A program made the translations under genes and the position numbers. This document shows, piece by piece, positions 526-36,996 of a stretch of DNA of 58,700 nt. The notes beneath the pieces were generated by a model. It saw nothing but the letters and a program-made list of their open reading frames with translations, searched no databases and had not been told where the DNA came from. The stretch's first letter is position 1; each line of letters opens with the position of its first letter. The stretch spans positions 1 through 58,700 of the forward strand of contig JAOEQC010000003.1 in assembly GCA_028388995.1 (NCBI GenBank). Direction: 5' to 3'. Source of the DNA: Ascidiaceihabitans sp. (GTDB lineage Bacteria; Pseudomonadota; Alphaproteobacteria; Rhodobacterales; Rhodobacteraceae).

Positions 526-690
526 ATAGGGCAATGTCTGCTTCCTCAGTTGGCGGCGAAAAACTAAATTACCTCCGAATGAATTTACAACGTTAGTACT
601 AGTGGCCCGTGGTCCGAGGTGCGGGGTGCCACTGGAGTTAATTGCATCTGAGTACAAGAAGTTGGCTGCAGTAACCCCCAGATACAACTC
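526..690 (+). repeat. Partial copy A of the IS6-derived chimeric repeat family (core fragment plus alternative left module)
   Basis: Shares 'ggcaatgtctgcttcNNcagttggcggc' with 32575-32605 and 'aatgaatttacaacgttagtactagtggcccgtggtccgaggtgcgggg...cagtaaccccc' with copies C, D and E. Confidence 0.65.
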
Positions 691-906
691 AAGCATCCGG
701 CCAAATCAAATAGTGGATGCTCCAATGGAGGTGGCGTAATTTATATAATCGATATCAATGATTTATTAAGTAATATTTGAGGTGGGCTTAATAGTGTGTT
801 TTTGATGTCATTTCGCGAATGGGATGGAATCGCTGTGTTGAACACAACACAAGTGAAATTCTTCCTAAGGCCTCGGCACAAACCAACCGAACGGAACAAT
901 AGATGG

Positions 907-2037
907 TTAAATTTCTGCAGCATCTAATGCTCTAAGCACTCTATTTGTGGTCGCCGTTACATCGTAGAGCTTGTCGAGTCCAAACAGTCCCAAGCGAAAT
1001 GTCCTGAAGTCATCTGGTTCATCACATTGTAGTGGCACACCGGCTGCAATTTGAACACCTTGAGCGGCAAATCTTTTCCCGTTCTGCACTTCTGGATCAT
1101 CAGTATAGGAAACAACAACACCAGGCGCGCCAAACCCTTCTGCTGCAACTGATCTGATACCACGCGCAACTAATAACTCACGAACTGAATTGCCTAATTC
1201 CCATTGAGCAGCTTTCAGTTTTTGAAAGCCGTACTTACGTGTCTCAAGCATCGTGTCCCGAAACACTTTGAGAGCATCTGTTGGCATAGTTGCATGATAA
1301 GAATGGCCACCATTTTCATAACTTTTCATAACTTGATGCCATTTACTCAAATCGATTGCAAAACTGTCAGATTGAGTCTCGTCTAAGCGTAATACCGCTC
1401 GTTCCGACAGCATCACGAGGCCTGCCGCTGGTGAGGCGCTCCAACCTTTTTGTGGTGCAGAAATGAGAACGTCAACGCCGAGCTCTTTCATATCAACCCA
1501 AACACAACCCGAGGCAATACAGTCTAAAACCATTAAAGCACCAACTTCGTGAGCGGCGTCGGCCATTTGCGCGATGTAGTTATCAGGAAGAATAATGCCA
1601 GCGCTGGTCTCCACGTGTGGAGCAAACACAACGTCCGGCACTTGCGCATGGATAGCTTCAACTACTTCATTAATCGGTGCTGGCGCAAAGGGGGACTGAA
1701 TAATGTTACCAGTTCTGCACGCTTTCAAAACAGTAGTTTCACTTGTCATGCCACCACTCTCGAGAATTTGACTCCATCGGTAACTAAACCAGCCGTTCCT
1801 CACAACCAGCGCCTGCGCGTTTCTGGCAAACTGTCTGGCGACAGCTTCCATGCCGAAAGTTCCCCCGCCAGGGATCAGTACTACCGCGTCAGCATTATAG
1901 ACCTCTTTAAGCATTGAAGAAATGTCATTCATGACATCCTGGAATGTGGTGCTCATATGGTTGAGTGATCGATCCGTAAATACGACAGAAAACTCTTCAA
2001 GGCCTGTGGGGTCGACGTTATCAAGTAATGCTGACAT
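907..2037 (-). CDS. Class V PLP-dependent aminotransferase (alanine/serine-glyoxylate type)
   Basis: ORF 907..2082; likely start MSALLDNVDP at 2037; LIPGGGTFGMEAVARQF and APQKGWSASPAAG lysine region. Confidence 0.8.
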   Translation of the reverse strand: MSALLDNVDPTGLEEFSVVFTDRSLNHMSTTFQDVMNDISSMLKEVYNADAVVLIPGGGTFGMEAVARQFARNAQALVVRNGWFSYRWSQILESGGMTSETTVLKACRTGNIIQSPFAPAPINEVVEAIHAQVPDVVFAPHVETSAGIILPDNYIAQMADAAHEVGALMVLDCIASGCVWVDMKELGVDVLISAPQKGWSASPAAGLVMLSERAVLRLDETQSDSFAIDLSKWHQVMKSYENGGHSYHATMPTDALKVFRDTMLETRKYGFQKLKAAQWELGNSVRELLVARGIRSVAAEGFGAPGVVVSYTDDPEVQNGKRFAAQGVQIAAGVPLQCDEPDDFRTFRLGLFGLDKLYDVTATTNRVLRALDAAEI

Positions 2038-2185
2038 TGGGCTCTCCAGTTCATGCTGAGATAATTGGTATCTGCACAACAATAGGCAGACAAACCCTAA
2101 TTATACATATTTGCATCGCGCATGCCTCCTTTATGTTATTGGAGGAACACGCGTCGCTTTTAAGAGACCTTTATAACCTATAGGA

Positions 2186-2320
2186 GGGCGCAGTCAAACT
2201 AATGAGAACTCGCATCAGATAGATGGAGCAATTGGAATCTATGCGCTCAATAATTGACGCCACTCGGCGAGAGCAGCGTCACGGTTTAGCTTGAAATTAG
2301 TGCGTGAGTAGAGATGGTGT
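2186..2320 (-). mobile_element. IS6-family transposase C-terminal remnant (copy B)
   Basis: Minus-strand translation HHLYSRTNFKLNRDAALAEWRQLLSA* is an IS6-type C-terminus; outer end gggcgcagtcaaactaatgagaac resembles the left ends of copies D and E. Confidence 0.7.
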
Positions 2321-2472
2321 TCCTGCAACCCCTCACAGCCGACATAACCGGTTCGAGCTCTAATCCCTAAATAATATGAACCTAAACTCACGTCGCCTAA
2401 AATGCAGTCGACGACTATTTGATAGAAATCTGCAGATTGTGGTCGCATTATTCTGCCGTTTTATCGCATCAA

Positions 2473-3723
2473 TCAAAACCGGTTTGGGTCAAAATCGTTG
2501 ATGTTACAATCGGGTGTCCGCTTTTGTGCAAGGTCATTAACGATCTTGCCCGTGACGCCGCCTAAAGTTAGACCGATATGTTGATGCCCAAAAGCAAATA
2601 TAATGCGTTTTGAATTTGCGGAATGCCCAATGACAGGAAGTGAATCGGGCATGGTTGGACGGTGCCCCAACCAAGTGTCATCAGGCGTACCAAGGTAACC
2701 GAACATTTCTGTAGATTTACGTGCTAAATAATCTGTGCAATTGATGTTAAACGCCGCATCGATGGCATTGATTTCCACCGTACCTGCAATCCGCAATCCA
2801 TGCGCCATTGGTGTAGCATAAAAGCCCGCCTCGGCCCATCCGACGGGGCGCGAAACAAGGTCCCCAGCGTCGCGGTAGAGGATATGGTATCCGCGTTCAG
2901 TTCCAAGTGGTAATTTTTCTGCACCGGTTCCCTTTATCTGGCTTGAACGTGCGCCTGCCGTCAGTGCAAGATGCCCACCACGAATTTCTGTCCCATCGCA
3001 CAGTTGCGCAGTCACACCTGTGTCATCTGCTTCGCAGGTTGCAACACTATTGGTTAGATGTATCCCACCCAGTGCCTCAAATCGTTTTTGCATTCGACTG
3101 ACAAGTTCCTGCGGATTGGTGATATGGCGCGCCCCTTTAAAGCGCAGCCCCCGATGGATCGGTTGCTGTAGATTAGGTTCCAATTGGCGCACCTCATCTG
3201 ACGTTAGCTCGTCAAAGTCCACACCTTGCGCCGCGCGCATTGCGTTACCATCAGACGCGCTTTCATAACCAGCCCGACTGGACCAGACATAAAGGCAATC
3301 ATTGCTAACGATAAGGTCTTGCGCCTGTGCCTCGGCGATCAGCGGATCAAGGCCGTCGGCTGAATGGGTCAAAAATTGCCCCAGCGACTGACTAATGTGT
3401 TTCACTCGCGACGGGCGACAATTGTTCAGAAACGAAAGCATCCAGCGCGGGTTTTTCAACCCGTATCCAAAATTGAAGCTGAGCGGGCTGTCGCGACTGG
3501 TCAACAATTGCGGAAGTGAGGCAAAGATCGACGGGCTATTGACCGGGATGCAAGCATAGGTGGCCACAGTACAGGCCGAGCCATAGGTGGCACCCGACCC
3601 GGCTGGATTTGGATCACATATAAGCGTCTTCAGACCCTCTTTTTGCGCCCATAGCGCCGTTGACATGCCGACGATGCCAGCGCCAACGACAATCATATCG
3701 AAATCATTATGTGCCATTAGCAT
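2473..3723 (-). CDS. FAD-dependent D-amino acid dehydrogenase / glycine oxidase-like (DadA/DAO family)
   Basis: GAGIVGMSTALWAQKEG dinucleotide fold; GHRPTMPDSLPVIG and FGHQHIGLTLGGVTG C-terminal motifs. Confidence 0.82.
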   Translation of the reverse strand: MLMAHNDFDMIVVGAGIVGMSTALWAQKEGLKTLICDPNPAGSGATYGSACTVATYACIPVNSPSIFASLPQLLTSRDSPLSFNFGYGLKNPRWMLSFLNNCRPSRVKHISQSLGQFLTHSADGLDPLIAEAQAQDLIVSNDCLYVWSSRAGYESASDGNAMRAAQGVDFDELTSDEVRQLEPNLQQPIHRGLRFKGARHITNPQELVSRMQKRFEALGGIHLTNSVATCEADDTGVTAQLCDGTEIRGGHLALTAGARSSQIKGTGAEKLPLGTERGYHILYRDAGDLVSRPVGWAEAGFYATPMAHGLRIAGTVEINAIDAAFNINCTDYLARKSTEMFGYLGTPDDTWLGHRPTMPDSLPVIGHSANSKRIIFAFGHQHIGLTLGGVTGKIVNDLAQKRTPDCNINDFDPNRF

Positions 3724-3822
3724 CCTTACTGCTCATGCGTTTTAGGTACTAAAAACACAGCCATTATAAGATCGGCTAACACCGGTCTATCCGTCAATAA
3801 AGCTTAGTGTCGGACATAAGAA

Positions 3823-4968
3823 TTAGACTATCTCAAGCAATAGCTTTGTGGTGTTTTCTTTGGTCATTGTGATGGGGTTGCCGCCTGTACTGGGGTCAAT
3901 CAAAGCACCTGCCACAACACGGTCGATATCCACATTTTTAATTCCAAGGCCAGTAAGGTTTTTGGGGATGCCAAGGGACGCATTCAATTCATCTACATAG
4001 GCGCAGAACCCATCAAACCCTCCCGCAATGTTTAGGTAGCTGGCCGCTTTCGTAATCACTTCAGTAATGGCTGGCTTGTTGAATTGCAGCACCGCAGGCA
4101 TGCACACCGCATTCGTGGTGCCGTGGTGCGTGTGATAGATCGCACCTATGGGGTGTGACAAAGCGTGAATCGCGCCTAGCCCTTTTTGGAAGGCTGTCGC
4201 ACCCATGCTCGCGGCTGACATCATATGCGCGCGGGCCTCAAGATCGGTTCCATCGGCGTAGGCGCGTGGCAGGTAGTCTTTGACCAACCGCATACCTTCC
4301 AGCGCCATACCTTGCGACATAGGGTGGTAGTGCGACGAGCAGAAAGCTTCAACGCAATGGGCAAAGGCATCAAGGCCGGTGCCTGCCGTGATGAAATCGG
4401 GCATTCCAGCCGTCAGTTCTGGATCGCAGATTACAACTGCGGGCAGGAATTTTGGATGGAATATGATCTTTTTTTCTTCGGTCAGAGAGTTGGTAATGAC
4501 TGATGCGCGGCCCACTTCGGACCCTGTTCCAGCAGTTGTAGGGACGGCAACGATTGGCGCAATCGCGTCGGCGTCGGCGCGCGTCCACCAGTCATCGATA
4601 TCCTCAAAATCCCAAAGCGGACGCGTTTGCCCAGCAAGGAAAGCCACCAGCTTGCCCAGATCAAGGCCAGAGCCACCACCAAAGGCAACCACACCGTCGT
4701 GGCCACCATCGTTGTAGGCTTTCACACCCGCTGCAGCGTTCTTTTCATTGGGGTTTGGATCGACATCAGCAAACATCGCACGCCCAAGGCCCGCGGCCTC
4801 AAGGAGATCAAGCGTTTGAGTGGTAATAGCCATACTTGCAAGACCGCGATCCGTAACCAAAAGTGGTTTTGTGATGCCCGCTACAGCGCAAGCGTCAGCG
4901 ATTTCAGAAATACGGCCAGCGCCAAAACGGATAGACGTTGGGTAGGACCAGTTTGCTATTGGGCTCAT
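3823..4968 (-). CDS. Iron-containing alcohol dehydrogenase
   Basis: GGGSGLDLGKL, PTTAGTGSEVGRASVI, AHCVEAFCSSHYHPMSQG, GAIHALSHPIGAIYHTHHG. Confidence 0.88.
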   Translation of the reverse strand: MSPIANWSYPTSIRFGAGRISEIADACAVAGITKPLLVTDRGLASMAITTQTLDLLEAAGLGRAMFADVDPNPNEKNAAAGVKAYNDGGHDGVVAFGGGSGLDLGKLVAFLAGQTRPLWDFEDIDDWWTRADADAIAPIVAVPTTAGTGSEVGRASVITNSLTEEKKIIFHPKFLPAVVICDPELTAGMPDFITAGTGLDAFAHCVEAFCSSHYHPMSQGMALEGMRLVKDYLPRAYADGTDLEARAHMMSAASMGATAFQKGLGAIHALSHPIGAIYHTHHGTTNAVCMPAVLQFNKPAITEVITKAASYLNIAGGFDGFCAYVDELNASLGIPKNLTGLGIKNVDIDRVVAGALIDPSTGGNPITMTKENTTKLLLEIV

Positions 4969-4972
4969 ATTT

Positions 4973-6346
4973 TTATGCTTTCTTGAGATGGTATGATTTT
5001 GGGCGTGTCAGGTTATGGTAGCCAATCACAGATAGGCCCCCACCGCGTCCCGTGTCTTTGCACCCGGTCCAGCACAGAGCGGGATCAAGGTAGTCAGCGC
5101 GGTTCAGGAACACGGTCCCTGTCTCGATTTGATCTGCGATTAATTCGGCGCGGATAGCGTCTTGGGTCCAAAGGGAAGCGGTCAGGCCAAAGTTACTATC
5201 ATTCATCAGGCGGATCGCTTCAGCGTCATCTTTGACGGACATGATACCAACGACGGGGCCAAAGCTTTCCTCGCGCATCACACGCATGTCGTGGGTGACG
5301 TTTGTCAGGATTTGCGGCATCAAATATGCGCCACCATTTTCGGGGAAATGCGCGGGATCGATATGTGCCGTTGCACCTGCCGCAATGGCGTCCTTTGTTT
5401 GGCCACGGACTTCGTCGGCGAAGCGGACATGCGCCATTGGACCAAGCGTTGTTTCAGCGTTTAGTGGGTTGCCTAAAATGTAACCATTCACAATTGCCAC
5501 AGCCTTTTGCACGAACGCATCAAACAGGCTTTCGTGGACATAAATCCGTTCAATCCCACAACAGCACTGACCAGAATTGAACATCGCGCCATCAATCAGC
5601 GTATTGACAGCCGCGTCAAGGTTGGCGTCTTCCATAACATAGCCAGGGTCTTTGCCGCCGAGCTCCAAACCGATGCCAGTAAAGTTAGCGCTTGCTGCCG
5701 CTTGCATCGCTTTGCCGCCACCAACTGAACCGGTGAAGTTCACAAAACCAAACGCGCGATCCGCGATCAAAGCAGATGTTGTCTGGTGATCCAGAAATAC
5801 GTTTTGGAAAACGTCCTCGGAGATACCAACTGAATGAAATGCGGCCGCCATTCGTTCGCCCACCAATGGGGTTTGGGACGCGTGTTTTAACATCACTGCG
5901 TTGCCTGCGATCAAGGCGGGCGCGACGGTGTTGATCGCCGTCATGTAAGGGTAATTCCAAGGGGCCACGACTAAGACCAAACCGTGGGGCACACGTTTGA
6001 TCACGCGGCGGAATGCATCACTGTCCTCAACCTCAATAGGGGCCAGTGCGTGTTCCGCAATCTCCGCCATATAAGAGGCGCGTTCATTGAATCCGCCAAA
6101 CTCACCACCGTAGCGGACAGGACGACCCATTTGGTGTGCTATCTCAAGCACGATCTCATTATTCATCTCACCGATGGCTGCAACACCTGCTTGCACCAGT
6201 TTGATACGCTCCGCGAGGGGGCGTGCAGCCCATGCGACTTGGGCGCTCTTTGCACGCGCGACCGCGGCCTCAGCTTCCGTGCGTGAAAGCGTGTCGCGTG
6301 TCGCGTAAACCGATCCGTCAATTGGAGAGATGCATTGGATAGTCAT
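4973..6346 (-). CDS. NAD(P)-dependent aldehyde dehydrogenase
   Basis: APWNYPYMTAINTVAPALIAGN, FTGSVGGGKA, LELGGKDPGYV, FNSGQCCCGIERIYVH; start near MTIQCISP. Confidence 0.88.
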   Translation of the reverse strand: MTIQCISPIDGSVYATRDTLSRTEAEAAVARAKSAQVAWAARPLAERIKLVQAGVAAIGEMNNEIVLEIAHQMGRPVRYGGEFGGFNERASYMAEIAEHALAPIEVEDSDAFRRVIKRVPHGLVLVVAPWNYPYMTAINTVAPALIAGNAVMLKHASQTPLVGERMAAAFHSVGISEDVFQNVFLDHQTTSALIADRAFGFVNFTGSVGGGKAMQAAASANFTGIGLELGGKDPGYVMEDANLDAAVNTLIDGAMFNSGQCCCGIERIYVHESLFDAFVQKAVAIVNGYILGNPLNAETTLGPMAHVRFADEVRGQTKDAIAAGATAHIDPAHFPENGGAYLMPQILTNVTHDMRVMREESFGPVVGIMSVKDDAEAIRLMNDSNFGLTASLWTQDAIRAELIADQIETGTVFLNRADYLDPALCWTGCKDTGRGGGLSVIGYHNLTRPKSYHLKKA

Positions 6347-6350
6347 AGCT

Positions 6351-7712
6351 TTAAGCCCTTTCAAAACCGCGTGAGATTTCCCAATCGGTCACTGTGCGGT
6401 CAAATTCTTCTTGTTCCCATTCGGCAGCGCGGGTGTAGTGATCAACAACATCATCGCCCATGGCCGCACGTAGCATATCAGATCCGTGCAGCGCGTCTTT
6501 TGCGTCGCGCAAGTTTTGGGGGATATGCGCAGAGGTTGTATCTTCATATGCATCACCCGAGAAAGCCGCAGGGAGTGTCAGCTTTTCTTCTATCCCTTTG
6601 ATACCCGCGGCAAGCATTGCAGCTTGCGCAAGATAGGGGTTCATATCAGACCCTGGTATGCGACATTCGACCCTTATCGCTTTGCTGTCAGCACCACACA
6701 GGCGATAAGCGGCAGTGCGATTATCTACCGACCAAATAACTTTTGTCGGCGCAAATGAACCTTTGGCAAAGCGTTTGTAGCTATTGATATAGGGGGCCAT
6801 GAAATAAGTGTAATCGGCAGCGTATTTGATCAGACCAGCCATATAGTGATCCATCAATTCTGATTTACTATTGGGCCGATCAGCATCGAAAAACGCTGGC
6901 TTACCGTCTTTCCACAAGGATTGGTGTACATGGCTGGACGATCCAACGCGATCTTGGCTCCACTTGGGTAAAAATGTTGCGGCGTGGCCATGTTGCCATG
7001 CGATTTCTTTCACAGCATGTTTGGCAATGCTATGGTGATCGGCACAGGCAAGCGCCTCGTCATATTTGATGTTCAGCTCTTCTTGGCCGGCTTCGGCTTC
7101 TCCTTTAGACCCCTCAATAGGGATGCCCATGGCATAAAGGTGGTTGCGCAATGGGCGCATCACAACCTCTTCCTTGGTAGTTTGTAGGATGTTGTAATCT
7201 TCGTTATATCCGCTGATGGGGTTAAGATCGCGAAAACCGCCTTTACGGATATCATCAAAGCTTTTCTCAAACAGGAAGAATTCCAATTCGGTCGCCATTG
7301 TGGCGCTAAATCCCATTTCCGTTAGGCGCGCGATCTGGGTTTTCAACATTGCGCGCGGGGAATGTGCAATCGATTTTTGATGGTGATCCAAGACGTCGCA
7401 AAGCACCATCGCAGTGCCTTCAAGCCATGGGACAAGGCGCAATGTGTCCAGATCGGGCTTCATGGTATAATCGCCGTACCCTTGCTCCCAACTGGTCGCA
7501 GCATAGCCACCAGGCGTTGCCATTTCGAGGTCGGTGGCAAGCAAATAGGTGCAGCAATGCGTTTCCGCATGACCACTTTCGACAAAGGCTTGTGCATGAA
7601 AACGCTTGCCCATCAAACGGCCCTGCATATCAACAATACACACCAGGACAGTATCAACCGACCCGTCACTGACGTGCGTTTTTAGATCATCAAAGTTCAA
7701 AGTACCGGACAT
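6351..7712 (-). CDS. Glutamine synthetase family protein (gamma-glutamyl-amine ligase type)
   Basis: TELEFFLFEKSF, GSSSHVHQSLW, NRTAAYRLCG, RVECRIPGSDMNPY; likely start MSGTLNFDDL. Confidence 0.85.
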   Translation of the reverse strand: MSGTLNFDDLKTHVSDGSVDTVLVCIVDMQGRLMGKRFHAQAFVESGHAETHCCTYLLATDLEMATPGGYAATSWEQGYGDYTMKPDLDTLRLVPWLEGTAMVLCDVLDHHQKSIAHSPRAMLKTQIARLTEMGFSATMATELEFFLFEKSFDDIRKGGFRDLNPISGYNEDYNILQTTKEEVVMRPLRNHLYAMGIPIEGSKGEAEAGQEELNIKYDEALACADHHSIAKHAVKEIAWQHGHAATFLPKWSQDRVGSSSHVHQSLWKDGKPAFFDADRPNSKSELMDHYMAGLIKYAADYTYFMAPYINSYKRFAKGSFAPTKVIWSVDNRTAAYRLCGADSKAIRVECRIPGSDMNPYLAQAAMLAAGIKGIEEKLTLPAAFSGDAYEDTTSAHIPQNLRDAKDALHGSDMLRAAMGDDVVDHYTRAAEWEQEEFDRTVTDWEISRGFERA

Positions 7713-7740
7713 TAGGTTTCCATTCTTAACAGAGAGGTGA

Positions 7741-7760
7741 GGGCCGACAAGTCGCGGCCC
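7741..7760 (-). promoter_or_regulatory. Stem-loop between the TRAP SBP gene and the GS-like gene
   Basis: gggccg-acaagtcg-cggccc, 6-bp GC stem directly downstream of the SBP stop. Confidence 0.5.
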
Positions 7761-7772
7761 CCAGAGCACAAA

Positions 7773-8804
7773 TTAGCCGTAACGGTATGGGCGTCCAGCT
7801 TTGACCATATCGGCGTTGTACTTCTTAAAGATATCAACAACGCGACGCTTGACGTCAGACTCGGCTGCGATTTCTTCCCAGAACACCTGTGCAGCATCTT
7901 CGACTGTTGCCCATTCTTCGTCTGGAATTGAAGTCAGTTCCATTTTTGGACCATTGACACGCAAGTTGGCTTCTCCACCCCAATACCACCACTGACGATA
8001 GTAGTGTGATTGGTCACAGCAGACGCGGAACAGCGTTTGCAGATCTTCTGGCAGTTCATTCCAGCGGTCCATGTTGGCAAAGAATGACCCAGCCCATGCA
8101 CCAGAGATATTGTTGGTGAGGAAGTAGTTTGTCACATCAGCCCAACCAACGGTGTAGTCTTCAGTGATGCCTGACCAAGCGACGCCATCAAGTTCGCCAG
8201 TTTGCAAGGCAACTTCAATATCTTCCCAAGGCAAGTTCACTGGAACTACGCCGAACTGTGTCAAGAAACGACCAGCGGTTGGGAAGGTAAAGATCTTCTT
8301 GCCCTTGAGGTCTTCAAGGCTACGGATGGGGTCTTTGGTTGCGAAGTGGCAAGGATCCCAAGCACCAGCAGAGATGTGTTTTACGCCGACTTTTGAGTAT
8401 TCTTCGTCCCAAATCTCGTTCAAGCCATATTGGTTGAACAGCACTGGAACATCGAGCGAGTAGCGTGAGCCAAACGGAAAGTAGCCGCCAAAAACTGTGA
8501 CGTCCGTAGGTGATGCCATTGAATCGTCGTCTGATTGTACGGCATCAATCGTGCCGCGTTGCATGGCCTGAAACAGCTCGCCCGTTGGGACCAGTTGGTC
8601 CGCAAAGAACAATTCGATTTGCATGCGGTCGCCGGCAATTTTGTTGAACATTTCGATCGCAGGAACGATCACTTCTGCGGCTAGAGATGCGCCCGCATAG
8701 GTCTGCATCCGCCATTTGATCGTACTTTGGGCCAGCGCCGGTGTGGCTAGGGCTGCGGGTGCGGCAATAGCTGCACCTTGGATAAATTTGCGTCTTGAAG
8801 TCAT
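7773..8804 (-). CDS. TRAP transporter substrate-binding protein DctP, Tat-type signal
   Basis: MTSRRKFIQGAAIAAPAALATPALAQ signal; KKIFTFPTAGRFLTQFGVVPVNLPWEDIEVALQTGELDGVAWSG. Confidence 0.88.
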   Translation of the reverse strand: MTSRRKFIQGAAIAAPAALATPALAQSTIKWRMQTYAGASLAAEVIVPAIEMFNKIAGDRMQIELFFADQLVPTGELFQAMQRGTIDAVQSDDDSMASPTDVTVFGGYFPFGSRYSLDVPVLFNQYGLNEIWDEEYSKVGVKHISAGAWDPCHFATKDPIRSLEDLKGKKIFTFPTAGRFLTQFGVVPVNLPWEDIEVALQTGELDGVAWSGITEDYTVGWADVTNYFLTNNISGAWAGSFFANMDRWNELPEDLQTLFRVCCDQSHYYRQWWYWGGEANLRVNGPKMELTSIPDEEWATVEDAAQVFWEEIAAESDVKRRVVDIFKKYNADMVKAGRPYRYG

Positions 8805-8849
8805 GTCTTCTCTCCTTGGTTGGGTCTCGATCGATTTGAGACGGCTCTT

Positions 8850-10178
8850 TTATGGTTTGTTGTAAACATAATCTGGAAGCCACGTGGCGATGCCGGGGAA
8901 GACCATGACCAGCACAAGGGCAAAGACCATGATCAACACGAAGGGTGTAATCGACGAATAAATATCGCGTAGCGAGATTTCGGGAGGGGCCATGGCCCGC
9001 ATCAAGAACAGGTTGTAACCAAAGGGCGGCGTCATATAGGCGATCTGTGTTGTGATCGTATAAAGGATACCGTACCAGATTAGATCAAAGCCCAGCTCGC
9101 CTACCAGTGGCACATAAAGCGGCGCGACGATCACCAACATGGCCGTGTCATCAAGGAACGTACCCATCAAGATAAAGCTAAGCTGCATCAGGATCAAGAT
9201 TGTCCAAGGGTTAAGATCAAGGCGTTCGGTAAAGACGCTTTCGATTGCTTTGACAGCACCCAGCCCATCAAACACCGCGCCAAAGGCGAGGGCTGCGAGA
9301 ATAATCCACATGAACATACAAGTAATACCCAGCGTGTTGCGCACCGAATTCTCGAACACCTCACGTGTCATCCGGCCCTTTAAGACGGCGGCGGCAAAGG
9401 CTGCGAGCGCACCAATGGCCGAACTTTCGACAAGCGACGTCCAACCTTTGACAAATGGTACCATCATCACCGCAAAGATCATGATTGGCAGCAATCCAGC
9501 ACGAAGAAGGCGCATCTTTTCAGCACGCGGAATATTGCGTTCGCTTTCGTCTAAAATTGGCCCAAGGACAGGATTAATGCGGCAACGCATGATGATGTAG
9601 GCGATGAACAAACCAGCCATCATCAAACCCGGTACAACGCCTGCCAACCACAGCTGGCCTACTGGCTGCCGTGCGATCATTGCGTAAAGGACTAGCACAA
9701 CAGAAGGCGGAACAAGGATGCCCAAACTCGACCCCGCTTGGATCACGCCAGTCACCATGCGTTTGTCATAACCGCGCTTTAACAGCTCAGGCAGCGCGAT
9801 GGTTGATCCAATCGCCATGCCTGCAACACTAAGACCGTTCATTGCTGAGATCAGGACCATCAGACCAATCGTACCAATAGCAAGACCACCGCGTAGGCCG
9901 CCCATCCAAACATGGAACATCTTATATAGGTCGTCTGCGATTTTACTTTCGGACAGTACGTAGCCCATGAAAATAAACATTGGCAGGGTGAGCAGTGGGT
10001 ACCACTTCATCAGTTTCATCGCTGCTGAAAAGCCGATGTCAAAACCGCCTGTGTCGCCCCACAATAGCAATGCCGCGACCACGGCGATAAATCCGATAGC
10101 CCCAAAGACGCGCTGTCCCGTGAGCAACATCAGCATCATGGACGAAAACATGAGGGTTGCTATTAATTCATACGACAT
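8850..10178 (-). CDS. dctM: TRAP transporter large permease (DctM)
   Basis: GQRVFGAIGFIAV; PLLTLPMFIFMGYVLSES; MNGLSVAGMAIGSTIALPELLKRGYDKRM; GSSLGILVPPSV. Confidence 0.9.
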   Translation of the reverse strand: MSYELIATLMFSSMMLMLLTGQRVFGAIGFIAVVAALLLWGDTGGFDIGFSAAMKLMKWYPLLTLPMFIFMGYVLSESKIADDLYKMFHVWMGGLRGGLAIGTIGLMVLISAMNGLSVAGMAIGSTIALPELLKRGYDKRMVTGVIQAGSSLGILVPPSVVLVLYAMIARQPVGQLWLAGVVPGLMMAGLFIAYIIMRCRINPVLGPILDESERNIPRAEKMRLLRAGLLPIMIFAVMMVPFVKGWTSLVESSAIGALAAFAAAVLKGRMTREVFENSVRNTLGITCMFMWIILAALAFGAVFDGLGAVKAIESVFTERLDLNPWTILILMQLSFILMGTFLDDTAMLVIVAPLYVPLVGELGFDLIWYGILYTITTQIAYMTPPFGYNLFLMRAMAPPEISLRDIYSSITPFVLIMVFALVLVMVFPGIATWLPDYVYNKP

Positions 10179-11514: not shown

Positions 11515-11546
11515 GTATCCCCCGGCTAGATAAATGTGTTGCTAAA

Positions 11547-11562
11547 GTTGATATCTGTCAAC
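11547..11562. promoter_or_regulatory. Candidate operator in the divergent promoter region
   Basis: Imperfect inverted repeat GTTGATATCTGTCAAC between the divergent amidohydrolase and rpiR genes. Confidence 0.3.
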
Positions 11563-11632
11563 AGAATAATGAGAATTATATACCATTTGAAAATTAGTTG
11601 TTATTTTTTTCATCAAAACAGAGGCGAGATCA

Positions 11633-25056: not shown

Positions 25057-25114
25057 TCACACCAAAAGACGCGAGCCCAAATGGGTCGTATTCATCTTTG
25101 AGGCGGTAACACGG

Positions 25115-26119: not shown

Positions 26120-26124
26120 CAGAC

Positions 26125-28265: not shown

Positions 28266-29257
28266 ACGAGAGACCACTGATCAGCGCGCAAAACCTCTCT
28301 GTTCACTACGCGTTGCGCGGTAATTTGATTGGCCCGAAACCCTATGTTGCCGCAGTCGAAAACGTCAGTATTGAGATCGCTGCAGGCAGTTTCTTTGGTC
28401 TGGTGGGCGAGTCTGGTTCGGGCAAAACCACTTTGGGTCGCGCTATGCTTCGCGCTGCGCCGATCACCAAAGGTGATGTTTTGTTTGAAGATGGCGAAGT
28501 CTCTTATTCGCTCAAAAACCTCGGTAAGAAAGAACTAAAAGACTATCGCAAGCGCGCGCAACTCATCTTCCAAGATCCTTATGCCGCGCTTAGTCCACGT
28601 ATGACAGTGCGAGACATTATCGCAGAACCTCTAGAAGTCATGGGTCTGACAAAATCACGCACCGAAACCGATGAACGTGTACGCGAAATTGCGAGTAAAT
28701 GCCGTTTAAATGTCGAACACCTGCGCCGTTTTCCACACGCCTTTTCTGGCGGACAACGCCAGCGTATTTCTATTGCACGCGCACTGGTCTCTGGTCCAAA
28801 ATTCATCGTCGCGGATGAAAGCGTTGCGGCTTTAGACGTTTCCATTCAGGCAGATGTGCTTAATCTCCTTAAGGCGATCCAACAGGAAATGGGCCTAACA
28901 TTTTTATTTATCAGCCATGACCTAAGCGTCGTTGCCCACGTCTGCGATCATGTAGCTGTGATGTATCTAGGTCGCCTTGTGGAAACCGCGCCTACGCGCG
29001 CGCTCTTTTCTAATCCGCGCCATCCCTATACTAAAGCGCTGCTCTCCGCGATCCCCTCCCTTGACCCAGATGATCGCGGCAAAGCGCAAAAGCTGGAAGG
29101 TGAAATCCCATCGCCAACAAACCCGCCGCCGGGCTGCAAGTTCCAGACCCGTTGCCCTAAGGCAATCGATCGTTGTCGTGTTGAAGAACCGGTTCTAGAA
29201 AGTGCAGGTACAGAACATTTTGTGGCCTGTCATCGGTGGAAAGAACTCTCTGTTTAA
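28262..29257 (+). CDS. Oligopeptide-type ABC transporter ATP-binding protein
   Basis: GLVGESGSGKTTLGRAM; FSGGQRQRISIARALVSGPKFIVADESVAALDVS; start MNERPLISAQ. Confidence 0.9.
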   Translation: MNERPLISAQNLSVHYALRGNLIGPKPYVAAVENVSIEIAAGSFFGLVGESGSGKTTLGRAMLRAAPITKGDVLFEDGEVSYSLKNLGKKELKDYRKRAQLIFQDPYAALSPRMTVRDIIAEPLEVMGLTKSRTETDERVREIASKCRLNVEHLRRFPHAFSGGQRQRISIARALVSGPKFIVADESVAALDVSIQADVLNLLKAIQQEMGLTFLFISHDLSVVAHVCDHVAVMYLGRLVETAPTRALFSNPRHPYTKALLSAIPSLDPDDRGKAQKLEGEIPSPTNPPPGCKFQTRCPKAIDRCRVEEPVLESAGTEHFVACHRWKELSV

Positions 29258-29278
29258 ATCTAAGTGAGCAAACCCGAT

Positions 29279-30565
29279 ATGAGCAATCACGAGATCGAAG
29301 CAAGACGCGACAAGGCGGTGGCACGCGCAATTAGCTTTTCGTCAACCTTTGTTGCCGAGAGGGCAGAAAATGCCGAAGTCTGGGATGTCGAGGGCAAGCG
29401 CTACATCGATTTTTGCGGCGGAATAGGTTGCCAGAATGTTGGCCATCGTAATCCGCGGGTCGTAGCCGCGATTAAAGACCAGCTCGACCACCTCACCCAC
29501 ACCTGTTTTCAGGTCACCCCGTACAAATCATATATTGAACTGGCAGAGCGGTTGAACGCATTGCTACCCGGCCAATTTGCCAAAAAATCATTGTTCTTTT
29601 CCGCTGGTGGAGAAGCCGTCGAAAACGCGATTAAAATTGCACGATACTACACACGTCGCCCCGCGTTAATCACCTTCACAAACGGCTATCACGGACGGTC
29701 ATACATGGGCATGGGACTAAGCGCACGTATGGTACCATTCAAAGAGGGCTTTGGCCCCTTTCCCGGACAAATCTTCCGCATGCCGTTCCCAGATGACTTT
29801 CACAACGTCACGTTTGAGGACACCAAACGGGCCTTCGAGACTTTGTTTCGCAGCGATTGCCCGCCCAATCAGATTGCGGCGATGTTTTTTGAGCCTGTGC
29901 AAGGCGAAGGTGGTTATAACATCGCCAGCAGCGACTTTCTTGAATACCTGCGCGCGCTTTGTGATGAGCACGGGATTGTTCTTGTTGCTGACGAAATACA
30001 AACTGGGATGGGGCGCACCGGAAAAATGTTCGCAATGGAACACTATGGAATCCATCCGGACCTTACCTGTATCGGCAAGAGTATTGGCGGCGGGCTCCCG
30101 ATATCCGGTATCTTGGGCAAAGCAGATGTAATAGATTCAGTTCCGCTCGGCGGTCTTGGGGGGACATTCGGTGGCAATCCGATGTCGTGCGCTGCGGCCC
30201 TTGCAGTGCTGGATGCGATCGAACAGGAAAACCTTTTGCAACGCGGCCTCGAAATGGGACTTCAAATTGACGCAAGATTGCGCAAGATGGGCCAACGAAA
30301 CTCCTTTAATTGCATCGGTGATGTGCGTGCGCTTGGATGCATGAATGCCTTTGAAATTGTTAAGGACCGCGACAGTCGCGAGCCTGATAGTGAATTCACC
30401 GCGAAAATTGTGAGCATGGCCCTAAATAACGGCCTGATCCTTTTAACTGCAGGCCCTGCGCGCAACGTTATACGCCTGCTGGTCCCTCTTACGGCAACGC
30501 CAGAAATTGTCGATGAAGGTCTGGATATTTTGCAGGCCTCACTCGAAGAAGCGCTGATCTCTTAA
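29279..30565 (+). CDS. Class III aminotransferase (4-aminobutyrate aminotransferase-like)
   Basis: FSAGGEAVENAIKIARYYTRRPALITFTNGYHGRS; LVADEIQTGMGRTGKMFAMEHYGIHPDLTCIGKSIGGGLPISG. Confidence 0.88.
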   Translation: MSNHEIEARRDKAVARAISFSSTFVAERAENAEVWDVEGKRYIDFCGGIGCQNVGHRNPRVVAAIKDQLDHLTHTCFQVTPYKSYIELAERLNALLPGQFAKKSLFFSAGGEAVENAIKIARYYTRRPALITFTNGYHGRSYMGMGLSARMVPFKEGFGPFPGQIFRMPFPDDFHNVTFEDTKRAFETLFRSDCPPNQIAAMFFEPVQGEGGYNIASSDFLEYLRALCDEHGIVLVADEIQTGMGRTGKMFAMEHYGIHPDLTCIGKSIGGGLPISGILGKADVIDSVPLGGLGGTFGGNPMSCAAALAVLDAIEQENLLQRGLEMGLQIDARLRKMGQRNSFNCIGDVRALGCMNAFEIVKDRDSREPDSEFTAKIVSMALNNGLILLTAGPARNVIRLLVPLTATPEIVDEGLDILQASLEEALIS

Positions 30566-30586
30566 GGCTTGCTCAGTAGGCAAGCC
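30566..30586 (+). terminator. Hairpin at operon end
   Basis: GGCTTGC-TCAGTAG-GCAAGCC directly after the aminotransferase stop; no long T-run. Confidence 0.5.
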
Positions 30587-31112
30587 AAAATCCACTCAAG
30601 GTTACTCCGCCCTAGGTGTTACGCCTAACGCATCTCAGTCCACGAAACAATCCTTGATCGATTGTGAGCAGCAGTGCGCATGAATGGCCGTTCTTGCCGC
30701 CGAATTGCAAAAGAGAGAATAATACGCTTGCAGCAATTTATGTGCTGCGAGCGCACGCAGCGCAAAAACTGAATTCACGGTGTGGGCTCACAGCCGACCT
30801 TCGCTGCTCGTTGAACTAAAGTCGGCTTTGGAGTTAAGCCACCTACAGTGAGATCGAGCAACCTATAAAACTCCCACCCTTTGTCCGTCTAAAATTTGCG
30901 TCCACGCCCTAATACCCCTGTGTCATCTGCAACACGGCTAATGCGGTGCTGCAGACGTTTAGGGTTGCTTAGGCGCAATGGCGTCAGGTCAGTCCCTGTG
31001 ATGCGCCTGTGAGATGGCGCAGGATGAATATGTGGCATTTGCTATGAGCAGTTGGTGCGAACCTCAGCGCCAACACGCAGCCACGCGCATGCGTGCGAGG
31101 GTCGCGTCTTAA

Positions 31113-31211
31113 CGGACCACGGCCCAAACAAAACTAACCAACACTGATTAGGCTCAGGCAACGCCGGTAAGAAGTCGAAGGTGCGTGGTCAAATGCCCAC
31201 GGCCCTTGGCT
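31113..31211 (+). repeat. Degenerate copy F of the chimeric repeat core
   Basis: 'cggaccacggcccaaacaaaactaaccaacactgattaggc...aagtcgaaggtgcgtg' aligns with 'cggacctcggtccgagcaattctaaccaacgctgatagtaggtcgacggtgcgtg' in copy E. Confidence 0.5.
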
Positions 31212-31373
31212 CCATGTCTCTACGTCTCGGCGTTAGATATTGGGCTAAAGCAGTCATTCATTCAAATTACAGGGAAAGGCTGCTTTGAGCCCATTGTGAC
31301 CAATGCTGCAAGATGGTTGAAGGTCTGCTATTCTTTAAATTTAATAACCGTTTAGATTTGTGAGACCAAAAAT

Positions 31374-32552
31374 TTGAAACCCCCAGTTTACAATATCAGC
31401 CCAAACGACTTCTGGCGGGACCCTTACCCGGATCTCAAGACGCTCCGTCATAATGCACCAATCGCGTTTGTGCCTCAGCTTGGAGCTACCTTGATCACAC
31501 GGCGCAACGATATTTTTGATGTTGAAAAAAAGATTGCATATTTTTCGTCACACCAACCCGATGGGCTGATGGTTCAGTTGATGGGCCAAAACATGATGCG
31601 CAAGGATGGCCCTGACCATATGACCGAGCGAAAGACTATCTTTCCGGCCGTCTCCCCGAAGACCGTGAAAAATGTCTGGAAGACGGAATTTGAAGAATTC
31701 ACAGATTCTATTCTGGCAAATGTCAAACCAGAGGGGCATGGGGATTTGGTGGATATCGCTAGGCAACTTTGTGGCGATGCTCTACGGGCGATAACGGGGC
31801 TGCGCAATATGACTTGGCAAGAAATTGACCGCACCAGCCAGGGTATGATCGATGGCTGTGCAAACTACGCGGGCGACAAACAAATTGAAGCGCGGTGTCA
31901 TGACTGTACCGCATTTATCGACCAGAATATTGACGAGATGGCTAACGTTTTACGCGATTGCCCTGATGCCTCACTCTTATCAGTACAGCTTGAGGCTGGA
32001 ATGACGATGGATCAGATCAAGGCGAATATCAAACTCGCTATCTCCGGTGGCCAAAATGAACCTCGCGATGTGATAGCGGGAATAGTCTGGGCGTTGCTCA
32101 CACATCCAGAACAATTGGCGCTGGTGTTGTCAGGCGAAGCGACATGGATGCAAGCGTTTGAGGAATATACGCGCTGGCAGTCCCCTATCGGGATGAGTCC
32201 ACGGCAGATGGCTCAGGACTATGATTTGCACGGTGCGACATTGAAAACAGGCGAACGCGTTTTCTTGATGTTTGGTTCTGGAAACCGCGATGAAACAAAC
32301 TTCGCCCGCCCAGAGTTTTTCGATCTGACACAAGATGCGTCCGCATCCATAGCTTTCGGGGCTGGTCCCCACTTTTGCGCAGGCGCAGGGGCGTCGCGAT
32401 GTCTTATCGCAGAGGTCGTATTGCCACGATTGTTCGAAGCTCTACCAAATTTACGCCTGAACGGCCTGACAGAAATCGGTGGTTGGGCATTCCGTGGGCC
32501 AACGACAACACCGGTCGCTTGGGATACCGAAGCTATGTCTGAAAGCATGTAG
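31374..32552 (+). CDS. Cytochrome P450
   Basis: Heme ligand loop FGAGPHFCAGAGASR; EYTRWQSPIGMSPRQ; FGSGNRDETNFARPEFFDLTQ; TTG start. Confidence 0.9.
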   Translation: MKPPVYNISPNDFWRDPYPDLKTLRHNAPIAFVPQLGATLITRRNDIFDVEKKIAYFSSHQPDGLMVQLMGQNMMRKDGPDHMTERKTIFPAVSPKTVKNVWKTEFEEFTDSILANVKPEGHGDLVDIARQLCGDALRAITGLRNMTWQEIDRTSQGMIDGCANYAGDKQIEARCHDCTAFIDQNIDEMANVLRDCPDASLLSVQLEAGMTMDQIKANIKLAISGGQNEPRDVIAGIVWALLTHPEQLALVLSGEATWMQAFEEYTRWQSPIGMSPRQMAQDYDLHGATLKTGERVFLMFGSGNRDETNFARPEFFDLTQDASASIAFGAGPHFCAGAGASRCLIAEVVLPRLFEALPNLRLNGLTEIGGWAFRGPTTTPVAWDTEAMSESM

Positions 32553-32559
32553 AGAAGCC

Positions 32560-32989
32560 AAAGCGGCTATTGGCGAAAGCAATGTCTGCTTCTGCAGTTG
32601 GCGGCAACAATCTAAACTCCCCCCAATGAATCTACAACTCTAACACTAAAGGCCCGTGGCCCGAGACGCGGGGCCCGTGATCCGGTGTCCCCGGGTGAGC
32701 CTGGCGCGTTTTATCTGTTTAGATTGGGCGCAGTAACCCCCTGCTATCGGTCCAGTGACCCAGATAAACCATCCAACTCCAACTGAGCCGCAGCAACGCT
32801 ATAAGCAAGACGTGGGTGCGTGCTCTATGGTTCGGGGCCGTGGCTCTTGGTTCCCGGTCCACCGGCCTAGGCAAGATGGTCCGGGAACCCCGGGCCAGGT
32901 TTTATGTAGCGAGATGCAGGGTGTTTTCTCATACGGCAAGGCTACGAAACCACCCTGCCCGTCTCAAGCTCGTTTTGTCTGACAGTGCG
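32560..32989 (+). repeat. Copy C of the chimeric repeat (alternative left module, GGNCC core, IS6 right end)
   Basis: Ends ...aagctcgttttgtctgacagtgc like copy E; minus-strand MRKHPASRYIKPG stub. Confidence 0.7.
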
Positions 32990-33089
32990 TCAACTACAAT
33001 TGACGAAAATGCATTTTGTATCTGATCTATTTGCATAATAAGGTGACGTAGGTAGTTGTTAAATTTATAGTAGTTAAGGAATATATATT

Positions 33090-34115
33090 ATGTATTTAGA
33101 AGACATTTTAAGCATCATTTTCCAGCCCGCTATTTGGTTGTTCATTCTAGTTGTAGTAATCTTGCGGCTATCGATCAAATTTGTGCCCCAGAATAGAACC
33201 TACCTAATTGAAAGATTTGGTAAATTTAACTCTGTACAGCATGCGGGGCTTAATTTTATTATCCCCTTCATCGACCGAGTCTCGGCGAACCGTTCACTTA
33301 AGGAGCAAGCTGTCGACGTCGATAGCCAAAGCGCGATCACAAAGGACAATATTTCCCTCAGTGTGGATGGGGTGCTCTATTTCCGGGTGCTCGATCCATA
33401 CAAAGCGACTTATGGTGTTGACGATTATGTATTTGCTGTGACCCAACTGGCGCAGACGACGATGCGCTCAGAGTTGGGTAAAATGGAGCTGGATAAAACT
33501 TTTGAAGAGCGTGATTTACTAAACACTAATATTGTTGCAGCCATCAATCAGGCCTCTGCGGCGTGGGGAGTTCAAGTTTTGCGTTATGAAATAAAAGACA
33601 TAGTCCCGCCACAATCAGTAATGCAGGCTATGGAGGCTCAGATGAAAGCAGAGCGCGTAAAGCGGGCGCAGATTTTGGAGTCCGAAGGTGACCGCCAAGC
33701 TGCGATCAACAGAGCCGAAGGCGAGAAGGCCTCAGTGGTGCTTGCTGCTGAAGCTGAAAAAGACGAGCAGGTTCTGCGGGCAGAGGGCGAGGCCAAAGCC
33801 CTTGTTGCGGTGGCCGATGCTCAAGCTAAAGCATTGGTTATGGTGGGGAAAGCCGCTGATACCCCTCCTGGACAAAAAGCAGTTCAGCTCGAGCTGGCGA
33901 CCAAGGCAATCCACGCTAAAGAAATGATAGCCAAACACTCATCGCTAGTTTTATTACCCGACGGAGCTACTGATGCCGCTACCGTCGTCACTCAGGCTAT
34001 GGCAATCATCCAGAAGATTTCTGGTACTGATGCATCGTCTGCTGTACTACAATCTTCAGATAGGCAAGCCGAACTATCCAATAGTCCTGGCACTTCCGGC
34101 CCTTGGGATAAGTAA
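33090..34115 (+). CDS. qmcA: SPFH/band 7 protein, QmcA-like
   Basis: VPQNRTYLIERFGKFNSVQHAGLNFIIPFIDRV; ALVMVGKAADTPPGQKAVQLELATKAIHAKEMI. Confidence 0.87.
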   Translation: MYLEDILSIIFQPAIWLFILVVVILRLSIKFVPQNRTYLIERFGKFNSVQHAGLNFIIPFIDRVSANRSLKEQAVDVDSQSAITKDNISLSVDGVLYFRVLDPYKATYGVDDYVFAVTQLAQTTMRSELGKMELDKTFEERDLLNTNIVAAINQASAAWGVQVLRYEIKDIVPPQSVMQAMEAQMKAERVKRAQILESEGDRQAAINRAEGEKASVVLAAEAEKDEQVLRAEGEAKALVAVADAQAKALVMVGKAADTPPGQKAVQLELATKAIHAKEMIAKHSSLVLLPDGATDAATVVTQAMAIIQKISGTDASSAVLQSSDRQAELSNSPGTSGPWDK

Positions 34116-34117
34116 AA

Positions 34118-34594
34118 ATGGACCCACAAAGCTTTCAACTACCGCTGGAGCATTGGCTTTTTATTCTGGGAATTGGCCTTTTGGTCATAGAGATTGTCTT
34201 TTTTGGCTTTGCTACCTTTGTTTTGTTTTTCGTCGGCATTGCGATGCTTATAGTGGGCGCGTTAATGGAATTCGGTGTGCTGCCGGCGGGGATCAATATT
34301 GCAATTGGTGGAGTATCCTTGCTGTCAATCTCGGGGGCGGTTCTGCTCTGGAAGCCACTTAAGAAGATCCAATCATCTAAAGAGGCGGCCAAGGTCGAAG
34401 TAGGCTTTGTTGGGCACCGATTTCAAGTGCAGACAGACATTGCGCCAGAATCGCCGGGCACCTACACTTATTCTGGCATCGAGTGGGCCGTAGTCAGTAA
34501 CACTACAATCCAACGTTTTACTCAGGTCCAAGTTATAAAAGCAGATGTTGGCCAACTCACCGTGACGCCGACAGAGGTTCTGTCAGACAAATGA
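34118..34594 (+). CDS. NfeD-family membrane protein
   Basis: Directly downstream of the SPFH gene; several TM helices then a C-terminal OB-like region; last codons lie in repeat D. Confidence 0.82.
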   Translation: MDPQSFQLPLEHWLFILGIGLLVIEIVFFGFATFVLFFVGIAMLIVGALMEFGVLPAGINIAIGGVSLLSISGAVLLWKPLKKIQSSKEAAKVEVGFVGHRFQVQTDIAPESPGTYTYSGIEWAVVSNTTIQRFTQVQVIKADVGQLTVTPTEVLSDK

Positions 34595-35111
34595 GAACAA
34601 GCATCAGATTGTTGGCACAGCCTAAATCTACGGACTCAATAATTGCCGTCATTCGGCTAGAGCAGCGGCACGGTTTAGCTTGAAATTGATGCGTGAATAG
34701 AAATGGCATCCAAACAAAACCCAGCCCAAATAAATCTACAACGCTAATACTAAAGGCCCGTGGTCCGAGGCGCGGGGCCCATGATCCGGGGTTCCCGGTC
34801 CATGGACCTGAGGCTCAATTGCATGGGTTGGACACAGTAACCCCTGCCGTTGGTCCACGAACCGCGGACCGAACAAAATCATCCAATGCCACCTGTTCAC
34901 AAGTAACACTGATAATAGGTCGACGGTGCGTGCTCTATTGTCCGCTAGAGCTCCTGTTCTTGGTCCCTGGTCCACGGGCCTGAGCAAGATGGTGCAGTAT
35001 TGCTCTGCGTTTTACACTGGTTTTAAAGCAGCTAAAAGGAGAACGTTTTGTCATCCAAAAATGCTACAAAGCAGCCATGTCCTATTCAAGCTAGTTTGCT
35101 CTGACAGTGCC
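34576..35111 (-). mobile_element. Copy D: IS6-derived chimeric mini-element with both transposase ends
   Basis: Left end HFYSRINFKLNRAAALAE*RQLLSP* (minus strand); right end minus strand MTKRSPFSCFKTSVKRRA; outer ends ggttctgtcagacaaa / ggcactgtcagagcaaa in inverted orientation. Confidence 0.78.
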
Positions 35112-35116
35112 ATTTG

Positions 35117-36334
35117 TTAGTCTTGCTTGCCGGGTTTCGCATTCTGGTCCATGGGCCGACTGATCAGAGGCTTTTGCGTCAGGGCGATGGCCGCGCCCAA
35201 AAGTAACAGTCCTGATGCGCCCAAAAGGCTTATACCAATGTCGCCAGCCAGATCCCCCAATAGCCCAGCGGCATAGGGCCCAAGAGTCTGCGCCACGGCG
35301 AAGACGACGGTGAAGAGGCTGATGGCCGCACCCCAGCTGCGCGCAGGCAGGTTTTGACGGGCAAAATTGGTCACGGCACTGGGGGCCATAAAAACCGAAA
35401 GACCAAAAATAACAGCCGCGAGCAACAAGGAGAAATCTCCAGGAAACAGCACAGGCAGCGCAGATCCCAAGGCGATGCAAGTTAAGATCATGGCCAATGG
35501 CAAACCTGAGGCGTGGCGCGCCAAGATGGGACGCCACGCCAAGGGTGAAACACAAATGCACAGGCCCAGCAATATCCAAACAGCCGCAATGAAGCTGGCG
35601 CTGGCAGCCTGCTGGGTCATCCAGGCTGATAAAAATGTCAGAAACACGATATAGCCCAATCCAAAGCCAGCATATCCGGCCAGTTGTGCCCAGATTTGAG
35701 CGATCGGGATAGGCGCTGGGGCGTCCGCTTGCTTCGGTGCTGGGCGCTTGAGCTTTGCAGCCGACCACAAGCAAAGCGGTAAAAATAGCGAGCAAATTGC
35801 CGCTATAATGATCCATGCTAAGGGCCAGTGATCCGCGCCGTAATACTCTAAAAACAGCGGCAGGCTCGCTCCGGATAAAACGATCGCCAAGCCGCCACCC
35901 GTTCCAAATAAAATGGCAATGGCTAGGGCATTGCGGCGCGGATCATTTGGAAACAGGCCAGCTGCTAAAACACCAGCGGTGGAAAAAGACATGGCCCCAA
36001 AAAAGCCGACCAAAGTGCGCCAAAGAGTTTGCCACCAAAGGTCCGAGATCAACCCAGTCGCCAGCAAAGCAAGGTTGGTTGTGATCAATCCAAAGGAAAA
36101 TAGAGATGTCGCCGAATATTGCCTGATCATGAGCATAGTCAACACAGCACCCGCGATATAGCCCAGAGCATTGGCCGTGTTGAGCCATCCAGCTTGAGCA
36201 TAGTTCCACCCCAAATCCGACTGCATCGCTGGCAATATCAACCCATAGGCGAATCGGGCGAAACCATTGGTCACTGTCACCCCCAGCGCCAGCCCCGCCA
36301 GCACCAACCACGGCCGTTTGTGTGCCTCTATCAC
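35117..36334 (-). CDS. YbfB/YjiJ-type MFS transporter
   Basis: GVTVTNGFARFAYGLILPAMQSDLGWNYAQAGWLNTANALGYIAG. Confidence 0.85.
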   Translation of the reverse strand: MIEAHKRPWLVLAGLALGVTVTNGFARFAYGLILPAMQSDLGWNYAQAGWLNTANALGYIAGAVLTMLMIRQYSATSLFSFGLITTNLALLATGLISDLWWQTLWRTLVGFFGAMSFSTAGVLAAGLFPNDPRRNALAIAILFGTGGGLAIVLSGASLPLFLEYYGADHWPLAWIIIAAICSLFLPLCLWSAAKLKRPAPKQADAPAPIPIAQIWAQLAGYAGFGLGYIVFLTFLSAWMTQQAASASFIAAVWILLGLCICVSPLAWRPILARHASGLPLAMILTCIALGSALPVLFPGDFSLLLAAVIFGLSVFMAPSAVTNFARQNLPARSWGAAISLFTVVFAVAQTLGPYAAGLLGDLAGDIGISLLGASGLLLLGAAIALTQKPLISRPMDQNAKPGKQD

Positions 36335-36473
36335 CCCGGCATTTTCCTATGTCTTGTCACGTGATGGGCCTCCGATGGGCGGAAAATTTTGCCGCTATCT
36401 AACGAGGTTAGGCGATTGAGCCTGCCGGGTCCAGCGGCACCCGCACAGAAACAAATTGCCAAGGCCAGTTAGA

Positions 36474-36996
36474 GGGTGCTGTCAGACTAATGATTGCAAG
36501 CATCAGATTGATGGGGCAATAAAAATATATGCGCTCCATAATTGACGCCACTCAGCGTGAAAAAAGGCACGTTTTGACTTGAAATTGGTGCTTGAATAGA
36601 GACGGCATTAACACCCCAAACAAAATCACCCCCCAATGAGTCCACCAACCCAACACTAAAGGCCCGTGGTCCGAGGCGCGGGGCCCATGATCCGGGGTTC
36701 CCGGTCCATGGTCCTGCGGCTCAACGGTGGCGAATGGGCCAAGTAACACCTGCTCTTGGTCCTTGATCCACGGACCTCGGTCCGAGCAATTCTAACCAAC
36801 GCTGATAGTAGGTCGACGGTGCGTGCTATGCAGCCCGATAGAGCCCCGGTTCTTGGTTCCCGGTCCACGGGCGTAAGCAAGATAGTCCAGGAACCCAGGG
36901 CCAGGTTTTATTTGGCGAAATGGGGAATGTTTTGTCATACGGCGAGGCTACGAAACCACCCTGCCCGTCTCAAGCTCGTTTTGTCTGACAGTGCCC
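36474..36996 (-). mobile_element. Copy E: IS6-derived chimeric mini-element
   Basis: Outer ends GGGTGCTGTCAGACTA / GGGCACTGTCAGACAA inverted; minus-strand stub MTKHSPFRQIKPG at right; C-terminal remnant at left aligned with copies B and D. Confidence 0.78.

Follow-up and report, generated by a model that had tools for sequence, protein, structure and literature searches.

The window analysed here is a stretch of 58,700 nucleotides of Ascidiaceihabitans sp. (contig JAOEQC010000003.1 of assembly GCA_028388995.1, below contig C3 of genome G000). It carries a dispersed family of repeats in which the ends of an IS6-family insertion sequence (IS) enclose a non-coding core. Gene blocks common to different species start and stop at these elements well beyond chance, suggesting that the elements act as joints at which genes are swapped, and the elements are dispersed among ocean bacteria of the Roseobacter group. 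What is known of IS6-type gene swapping comes mainly from clinical bacteria and their resistance regions. In the present case, IS6 chimeras without a transposase appear to border household genes (htpG-like, selD-like, transporters, hydrolases) exchanged among abundant ocean bacteria. If this is true, short transposase-less repeats would be a directly testable route of gene exchange in the Roseobacter group.

G000 belongs to the Rhodobacteraceae and is 54% complete (1.9 Mb, 128 contigs). Like most of its relatives, it is a fragmented, incomplete metagenome-assembled genome (MAG). The comparison covers eleven relatives (G001-G011), the isolate IMCC1909 and G080, a closed single contig of 3,288,122 bp. 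We name the modules of the elements L1 and R1 (left and right IS6 ends), CL and CR (the two core halves), and L2, L3, R2, R3, R4 and R5 (other ends); contigs cited without a genome are those of G000. In the window we find:

479-557, plus strand: copy A, left module L2, not an IS6 end (profile match)
561-678, plus strand: copy A, diverged CL, with no CR and no IS6 end after it
2188-2320, plus strand: copy B, IS6 left end L1 (transposase C-terminus, antisense); the interior to about 2349 is not the GGNCC core
30741-30840, minus strand: solitary R2 module (profile match)
31111-31301, plus strand: copy F, CR (31111-31232) and R2 end (31225-31301) (core profile match)
32569-32988, plus strand: copy C, L2 fragment (32569-32604), CL (32610-32740), CR (32748-32888) and IS6 end R1 (32892-32988)
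34576-35111, plus strand: copy D, complete, L1 (34576-34708), CL (34711-34845), CR (34848-34998) and R1 (35017-35111)
35117-36334, minus strand: MFS gene (YbfB-like, PF06779), the passenger between D and E
36474-36996, plus strand: copy E, complete, L1 (36474-36608), CL (36617-36751), CR (36763-36894) and R1 (36897-36996)
36996-48296, plus strand: urease-side block, 89.5% identical to G006:C21 over 11.3 kb, starting at the right tip of E

Gene blocks that end at the elements

The block with the MFS gene (35034-36478) is 92% identical to C30:26225-27668 of G003, where it lies in another neighbourhood. The ureD of G003 next door is only 67-70% identical, and elsewhere the window is mostly 65-75% identical to members of the genus. 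At the edge of the urease-side block, G006 has unrelated DNA on the other side. Within the urease region, an antisense stretch (38972-39257) matches the Rfam family 5_ureB_sRNA with 104.5 bits; this match probably reflects the conserved coding sequence of ureB.

In G003 and G005, the contigs rich in repeats are mosaics of blocks that match different G000 contigs at 89-97% identity. G003:C30 strings together blocks matching C3, C15, C37 and C85, and in G003:C47 a shared element links C37:335-4500 with C37:9070-10436, the product expected of a deletion between direct repeats. Along C37 itself (16.8 kb), IS6-derived elements follow one another, every one on the minus strand and separated from the next by a single gene or a gene pair, and the blocks of this contig occur separately in G003:C30, G003:C47 and G005:C27.

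On contigs picked for carrying elements, an element is found no more than 60 bp from 15 of the 25 internal block ends, where 1.7 were expected; none of 20,000 draws from the null, which is conditional on these contigs, was as high, and the blocks that are independent are few. A replicate with IMCC1909 and G080 gave a weaker signal, 7/45 and 7/49 block ends within 100 bp of an element (null 2.3 and 1.1). These counts replace one of 36/87 for the same pair, which was inflated by intact IS copies. A 13-kb block of 98.7% identity in IMCC1909 and G080 is bounded by elements in both genomes, and the outer modules of the bordering elements differ (L2 and CR-R2 in one case, L1 and R4 in the other). 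High identity reaches about 75-100 bp into R1 and about 12 bp into L1, then drops to the level of paralogues.

With genomes as fragmented and incomplete as G000 and most of its relatives, the joints could be artefacts of assembly or binning. We consider this highly improbable given that the same elements and combinations occur in the isolate IMCC1909 and the closed 3.29 Mb G080, which answer the MAG caveat as regards the anatomy and the weaker breakpoint test.

Adjacent elements have the same orientation in 78 of 84 pairs (19:1 in G000, 38:2 in G080 and 21:3 in IMCC1909). D, the MFS gene and E thus have the layout of a pseudo-compound transposon, though the flanking copies are derivatives rather than intact IS. 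Further cassettes enclose intact genes, singly or in pairs: an alpha/beta hydrolase, a DUF6880 protein, an old-yellow-enzyme homologue, a pair of selD-like and rhodanese/selenouridine-synthase-like genes, or an htpG-like gene (the names selD, htpG and synthase come from the sequence and not from a family search). In a 640-kb stretch of G080 (C1:2400001-3040000; L288-L313, L322-L327) with a GC skew of -0.047, all 66 module matches are on the plus strand; with the skew negative, this may mean that the elements have a polarity with respect to replication.

IS6 ends around a two-part core

D and E are 72% identical across 544 aligned bases (E 1e-75 in a self-comparison of the window), each consisting of an IS6 left end (about 133 bp), a non-coding core (about 286 bp) and an IS6 right end (about 97 bp). 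The tips are inverted and of IS6 type: on the left D has GGTTCTGTCAGACAAA and E has GGTGCTGTCAGACTAA, and on the right D ends in TTGCTCTGACAGTGCC and E in TTTGTCTGACAGTGCC. Both cores contain 11 GGNCC motifs, or 38-39 per kb against 3.6 per kb in the window (11-fold). The initial annotation had thus correctly described D and E as complete copies with transposase codons on the minus strand at both ends, inverted outer ends and a GGNCC-rich core in place of the transposase body. Copy D also supplies the stop codon of an NfeD-like open reading frame (ORF) at 34118-34594.

The left end of D encodes transposase residues 211-234 on the minus strand, 92% identical to a transposase of G000 that belongs to the IS6 family (NF033587, 187 bits; PF13610, 139 bits). 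Complete transposase genes occur in G024 and G016, and relatives carry intact full-length IS copies of 812-815 bp with short terminal inverted repeats. The source of the ends therefore has the DDE transposase, the tips and the length of about 800 bp of an IS6 element. In many copies L1 breaks off at transposase codon 206-213 or so, the same place for several interiors.

The partial copies A, B, C and F are real repeats, and the uniform structure of IS6 ends plus core first ascribed to them does not extend to all. B, at 2188-2320, is not a partial chimera: its IS6 left end is followed by a different interior, which is common to C37:6047-6160 (91% identity). This second interior type (2321-2349, CCTGCAACCCCTCACAGCCGACATAACC) has relatives on C16, C37, C80, C85 and C102. 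A and C carry core sequence behind a left end, L2, that is not from IS6, and the right end of C is IS6. F has the right core half with the non-IS6 end R2, extending over 31111-31301.

Running a profile of the core over the genome contigs gave 18 matches in G000, far above chance, four of them complete (D, E and two on C37). Many others are halves, either ending at model position 134-136 or beginning at 140. CL is preceded by L1 in D, E, C37, C80, C31 and C15, and by L2 in A, C and C40. The few bases that separate L1 from CL (e.g. 34705-34712 and 36605-36618) form short alternative words that differ from copy to copy (GCGTTAC, CAGTTAC, TACAGC, GCATC, ACATAGGCATC). CR continues into R1 or into R2 (F, C40), and the fixed end of CL may instead join R3 (C14, C31) or R4 (C81). 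The end modules outside the core are themselves repeated sequences.

Combinations in 114 public core loci include L1-R3 (21), L1-CL-CR-R1 (14), L2-CL-CR-R1 (9), L1-R2 (6), L2-R3 (5) and L3-CR-R1 (4). As these loci fall into 82 distinct right-flank clusters, they are not a single locus counted repeatedly. The modules are interchangeable and their order is fixed (L1/L2-CL-CR/R3/R4/R5 and CR-R1/R2), as in a BOX-type repeat. Besides the four in G000, about 15 L1-CL-CR-R1 copies are present in public loci of other genomes. The core is therefore neither confined to the window copies with a different interior in each nor always found without IS6 ends. Since the chimera is present in several genera and at many loci that are unrelated, it is a multiplied family, and to that extent the initial view holds. 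Its further claim, a single insert in one miniature inverted-repeat transposable element (MITE), oversimplifies, given a two-half core that is found with other ends and an IS6 end that is found with other interiors.

In IMCC1909 (L247:14979-15786) CL and CR flank an antisense gene of 113 codons with an HGGxSTG domain (NF041373, 55.5 bits); the same layout occurs in L153, and in G000 HGGxSTG genes lie beside CR at C40 and C72. The cores of D and E are accordingly the sequences on either side of a gene that these copies lack. R3 forms the 3' flank of tRNA-Ser genes for three isoacceptors (gga, tga and cga), or of tRNA-Ser 3' stubs of 8-14 nt (L105:2092-2200; L098:7409-7515; L239:13353-13457; C14:41432-41540 in G000). 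It contains a direct repeat, GTGGGTAG-CGTT-GTGGGTAG, resembling the attachment region of an integrative element. R5 is followed by a tRNA-Met-like gene, as read from the sequence.

A tentative and rather doubtful possibility is that the CL/CR core is a joint of general use in a combinatorial cassette system of pelagic Rhodobacteraceae, somewhat integron-like without an integron integrase, with the genes between joints shuffled across positions and species. The joint would be a 136-bp module with IS6 or other ends on its left and, on its right, IS6 ends, the HGGxSTG gene or tRNA-Ser and tRNA-Met 3' flanks resembling attachment sites. A link to an integrase was considered and set aside: the DUF6538 tyrosine recombinases of G000 (C72, C85) are not consistently beside CL.

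The core might alternatively be a structured non-coding RNA or a regulatory element carried by IS6. It has GC-rich palindromes, and folding of single copies gives z values from -0.4 to -2.8, which vary with copy and strand. However, the elements have no Rfam match at the gathering threshold or at E 1, and the consensus fold of 12 copies is no better than -14.6 kcal/mol, its covariation term being unfavourable. As neither the Rfam search nor the consensus fold gave a conserved covarying fold, we disfavour this explanation as very improbable.

Matches to element E are present in the same-genus genomes G001-G003 and G005-G008, and there is none in G004 and G009-G011; the core alone is found in 6 of the 11 relatives. 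Among 301 sampled genomes of the family, six have matches. Carriers include the isolates IMCC1909, SB2 and Planktotalea frisia SH6-1, Planktomarina MAGs and Ascidiaceihabitans AH-578-E10. In marine metagenomes, at least 120 stretches contain the core. G080 has 14 CL matches, in all main combinations. The core is absent from the plasmid and phage collections searched, where the one plasmid match is to the IS6 end only, and the viral contigs searched have no match to the core, R3 or R4. We found no description of these elements in the open-access literature, where absence proves little.

Probable recombination at the elements

We think it probable, with considerable room for doubt, that D and E, as IS6 derivatives of the non-autonomous kind, form the joints of pseudo-compound cassettes, at which an IS6 transposase in trans, or RecA, carries out the recombination. 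Under this scenario, a CL+CR core replaced the transposase body between codon 208 or so and the N-terminus, and the family then multiplied and diverged to 70-80% identity, gaining alternative end modules through recombination inside elements. Standing as direct repeats around single genes or small operons, the elements would make cassettes of them. Ectopic recombination between elements, which may still continue, would excise, delete or insert the enclosed gene and so move it within a species and, where DNA passes between cells, between species.

Recombination probably starts at the IS6 tips by the action of transposase in trans, in a targeted conservative reaction like that of IS26 followed by branch migration, or else proceeds by plain RecA. 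IS6 elements form pseudo-compound transposons from direct repeats (PMC7986276). For IS26, the conservative reaction is proposed to start at the IS tip, with a Holliday junction that migrates inward and stalls at mismatches (PMC7885326). Such migration predicts crossovers slightly inside the element ends, matching the identity profiles described above.

Several observations weigh against this proposal. Besides the selection of contigs and the small number of independent blocks in the first breakpoint test, not every block end is at an element, and in the isolate pair most are not. At the edge of E, the G003 match stops at the element tip and not inside it. The conservative reaction of IS26 requires identical sequence where the ends react, with both partners providing the same transposase (PMC7885326); copies only 70-80% alike are low for this reaction and for RecA. 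As L2-type copies are without an IS6 left end, an IS6 transposase cannot act on both of their sides. The missing target duplications, described below, also count here.

Plain RecA recombination, the second of the two routes above taken by itself, is the main rival. The elements would then be inert relics recombined through homology alone, with no present role for the IS6 transposase. This is a serious possibility, though we hold it to be somewhat improbable. Crossovers inside elements, the direct-repeat deletion in G003:C47 and the shuffling of L2 and R3 types that have no IS6 tip are all as it would have them. Against it, 70-80% identity makes a poor substrate for RecA, and the few crossovers mapped are near IS6 tips and not in the middle of the core. 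Linkage disequilibrium (LD) was rejected as proof of recombination. LD in the core is at background within about 15 bp, four gametes are common, and CL columns have almost no association with the left partner, but a star-like burst followed by independent decay predicts nearly the same. The case for recombination is therefore not rested on LD.

Alternatively, the L1-core-R1 form may be an ordinary IS6 MITE, a unit of 0.5 kb that hops by means of a transposase acting in trans, its link to gene blocks being a by-product of the build-up of both in variable regions. IS6 transposase genes are present, many copies retain both IS6 tips, and MITEs of the IS6 family, 227 and 336 bp long, have been described (PMC7986276). 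The elements likewise have both IS ends, no transposase ORF and several copies. However, we found no 8-bp target duplication at about 30 two-ended copies, intact IS included (the best matches were 3-6 of 8, at several offsets), and no clean empty site, so that simple hopping is not supported; IS6 copies that have recombined would be without target duplications. Block ends also closely match the elements, element ends travel with genes and the same core has other end modules. We therefore regard the MITE explanation as unlikely; the evidence favours recombination at the elements over MITE-style hopping.

Comparison with known systems

The closest parallels are the pseudo-compound transposons and translocatable units of IS6/IS26 (PMC7986276, PMC7885326). 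They share with the elements described here the transposase, the tips and the size of intact copies, as well as direct repeats around passenger genes and recombination at IS ends. Unlike those units, most joints here are strongly diverged, transposase-less chimeras with non-coding cores, and the passengers are household metabolic genes of free-living marine bacteria. IS6-family MITEs (PMC7986276) similarly have both IS ends and no transposase ORF. However, those of 227 and 336 bp are shorter than the elements here (about 520 bp), which have a foreign core common to elements with other ends and no target duplication seen.

Among other families, TIMEs (PMC4133298) are likewise transposase-less miniatures with mosaic cores that flank and mobilise gene segments. 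They depend on a different transposase family, give duplications of 5-6 bp and have been observed in the act of moving. The BOX elements of streptococci (PMC3049150) are also repeats built from interchangeable modules. They have no known kinship in sequence with the elements here, which have IS6 ends, modules of 100-200 bp and a place at the borders of gene blocks.

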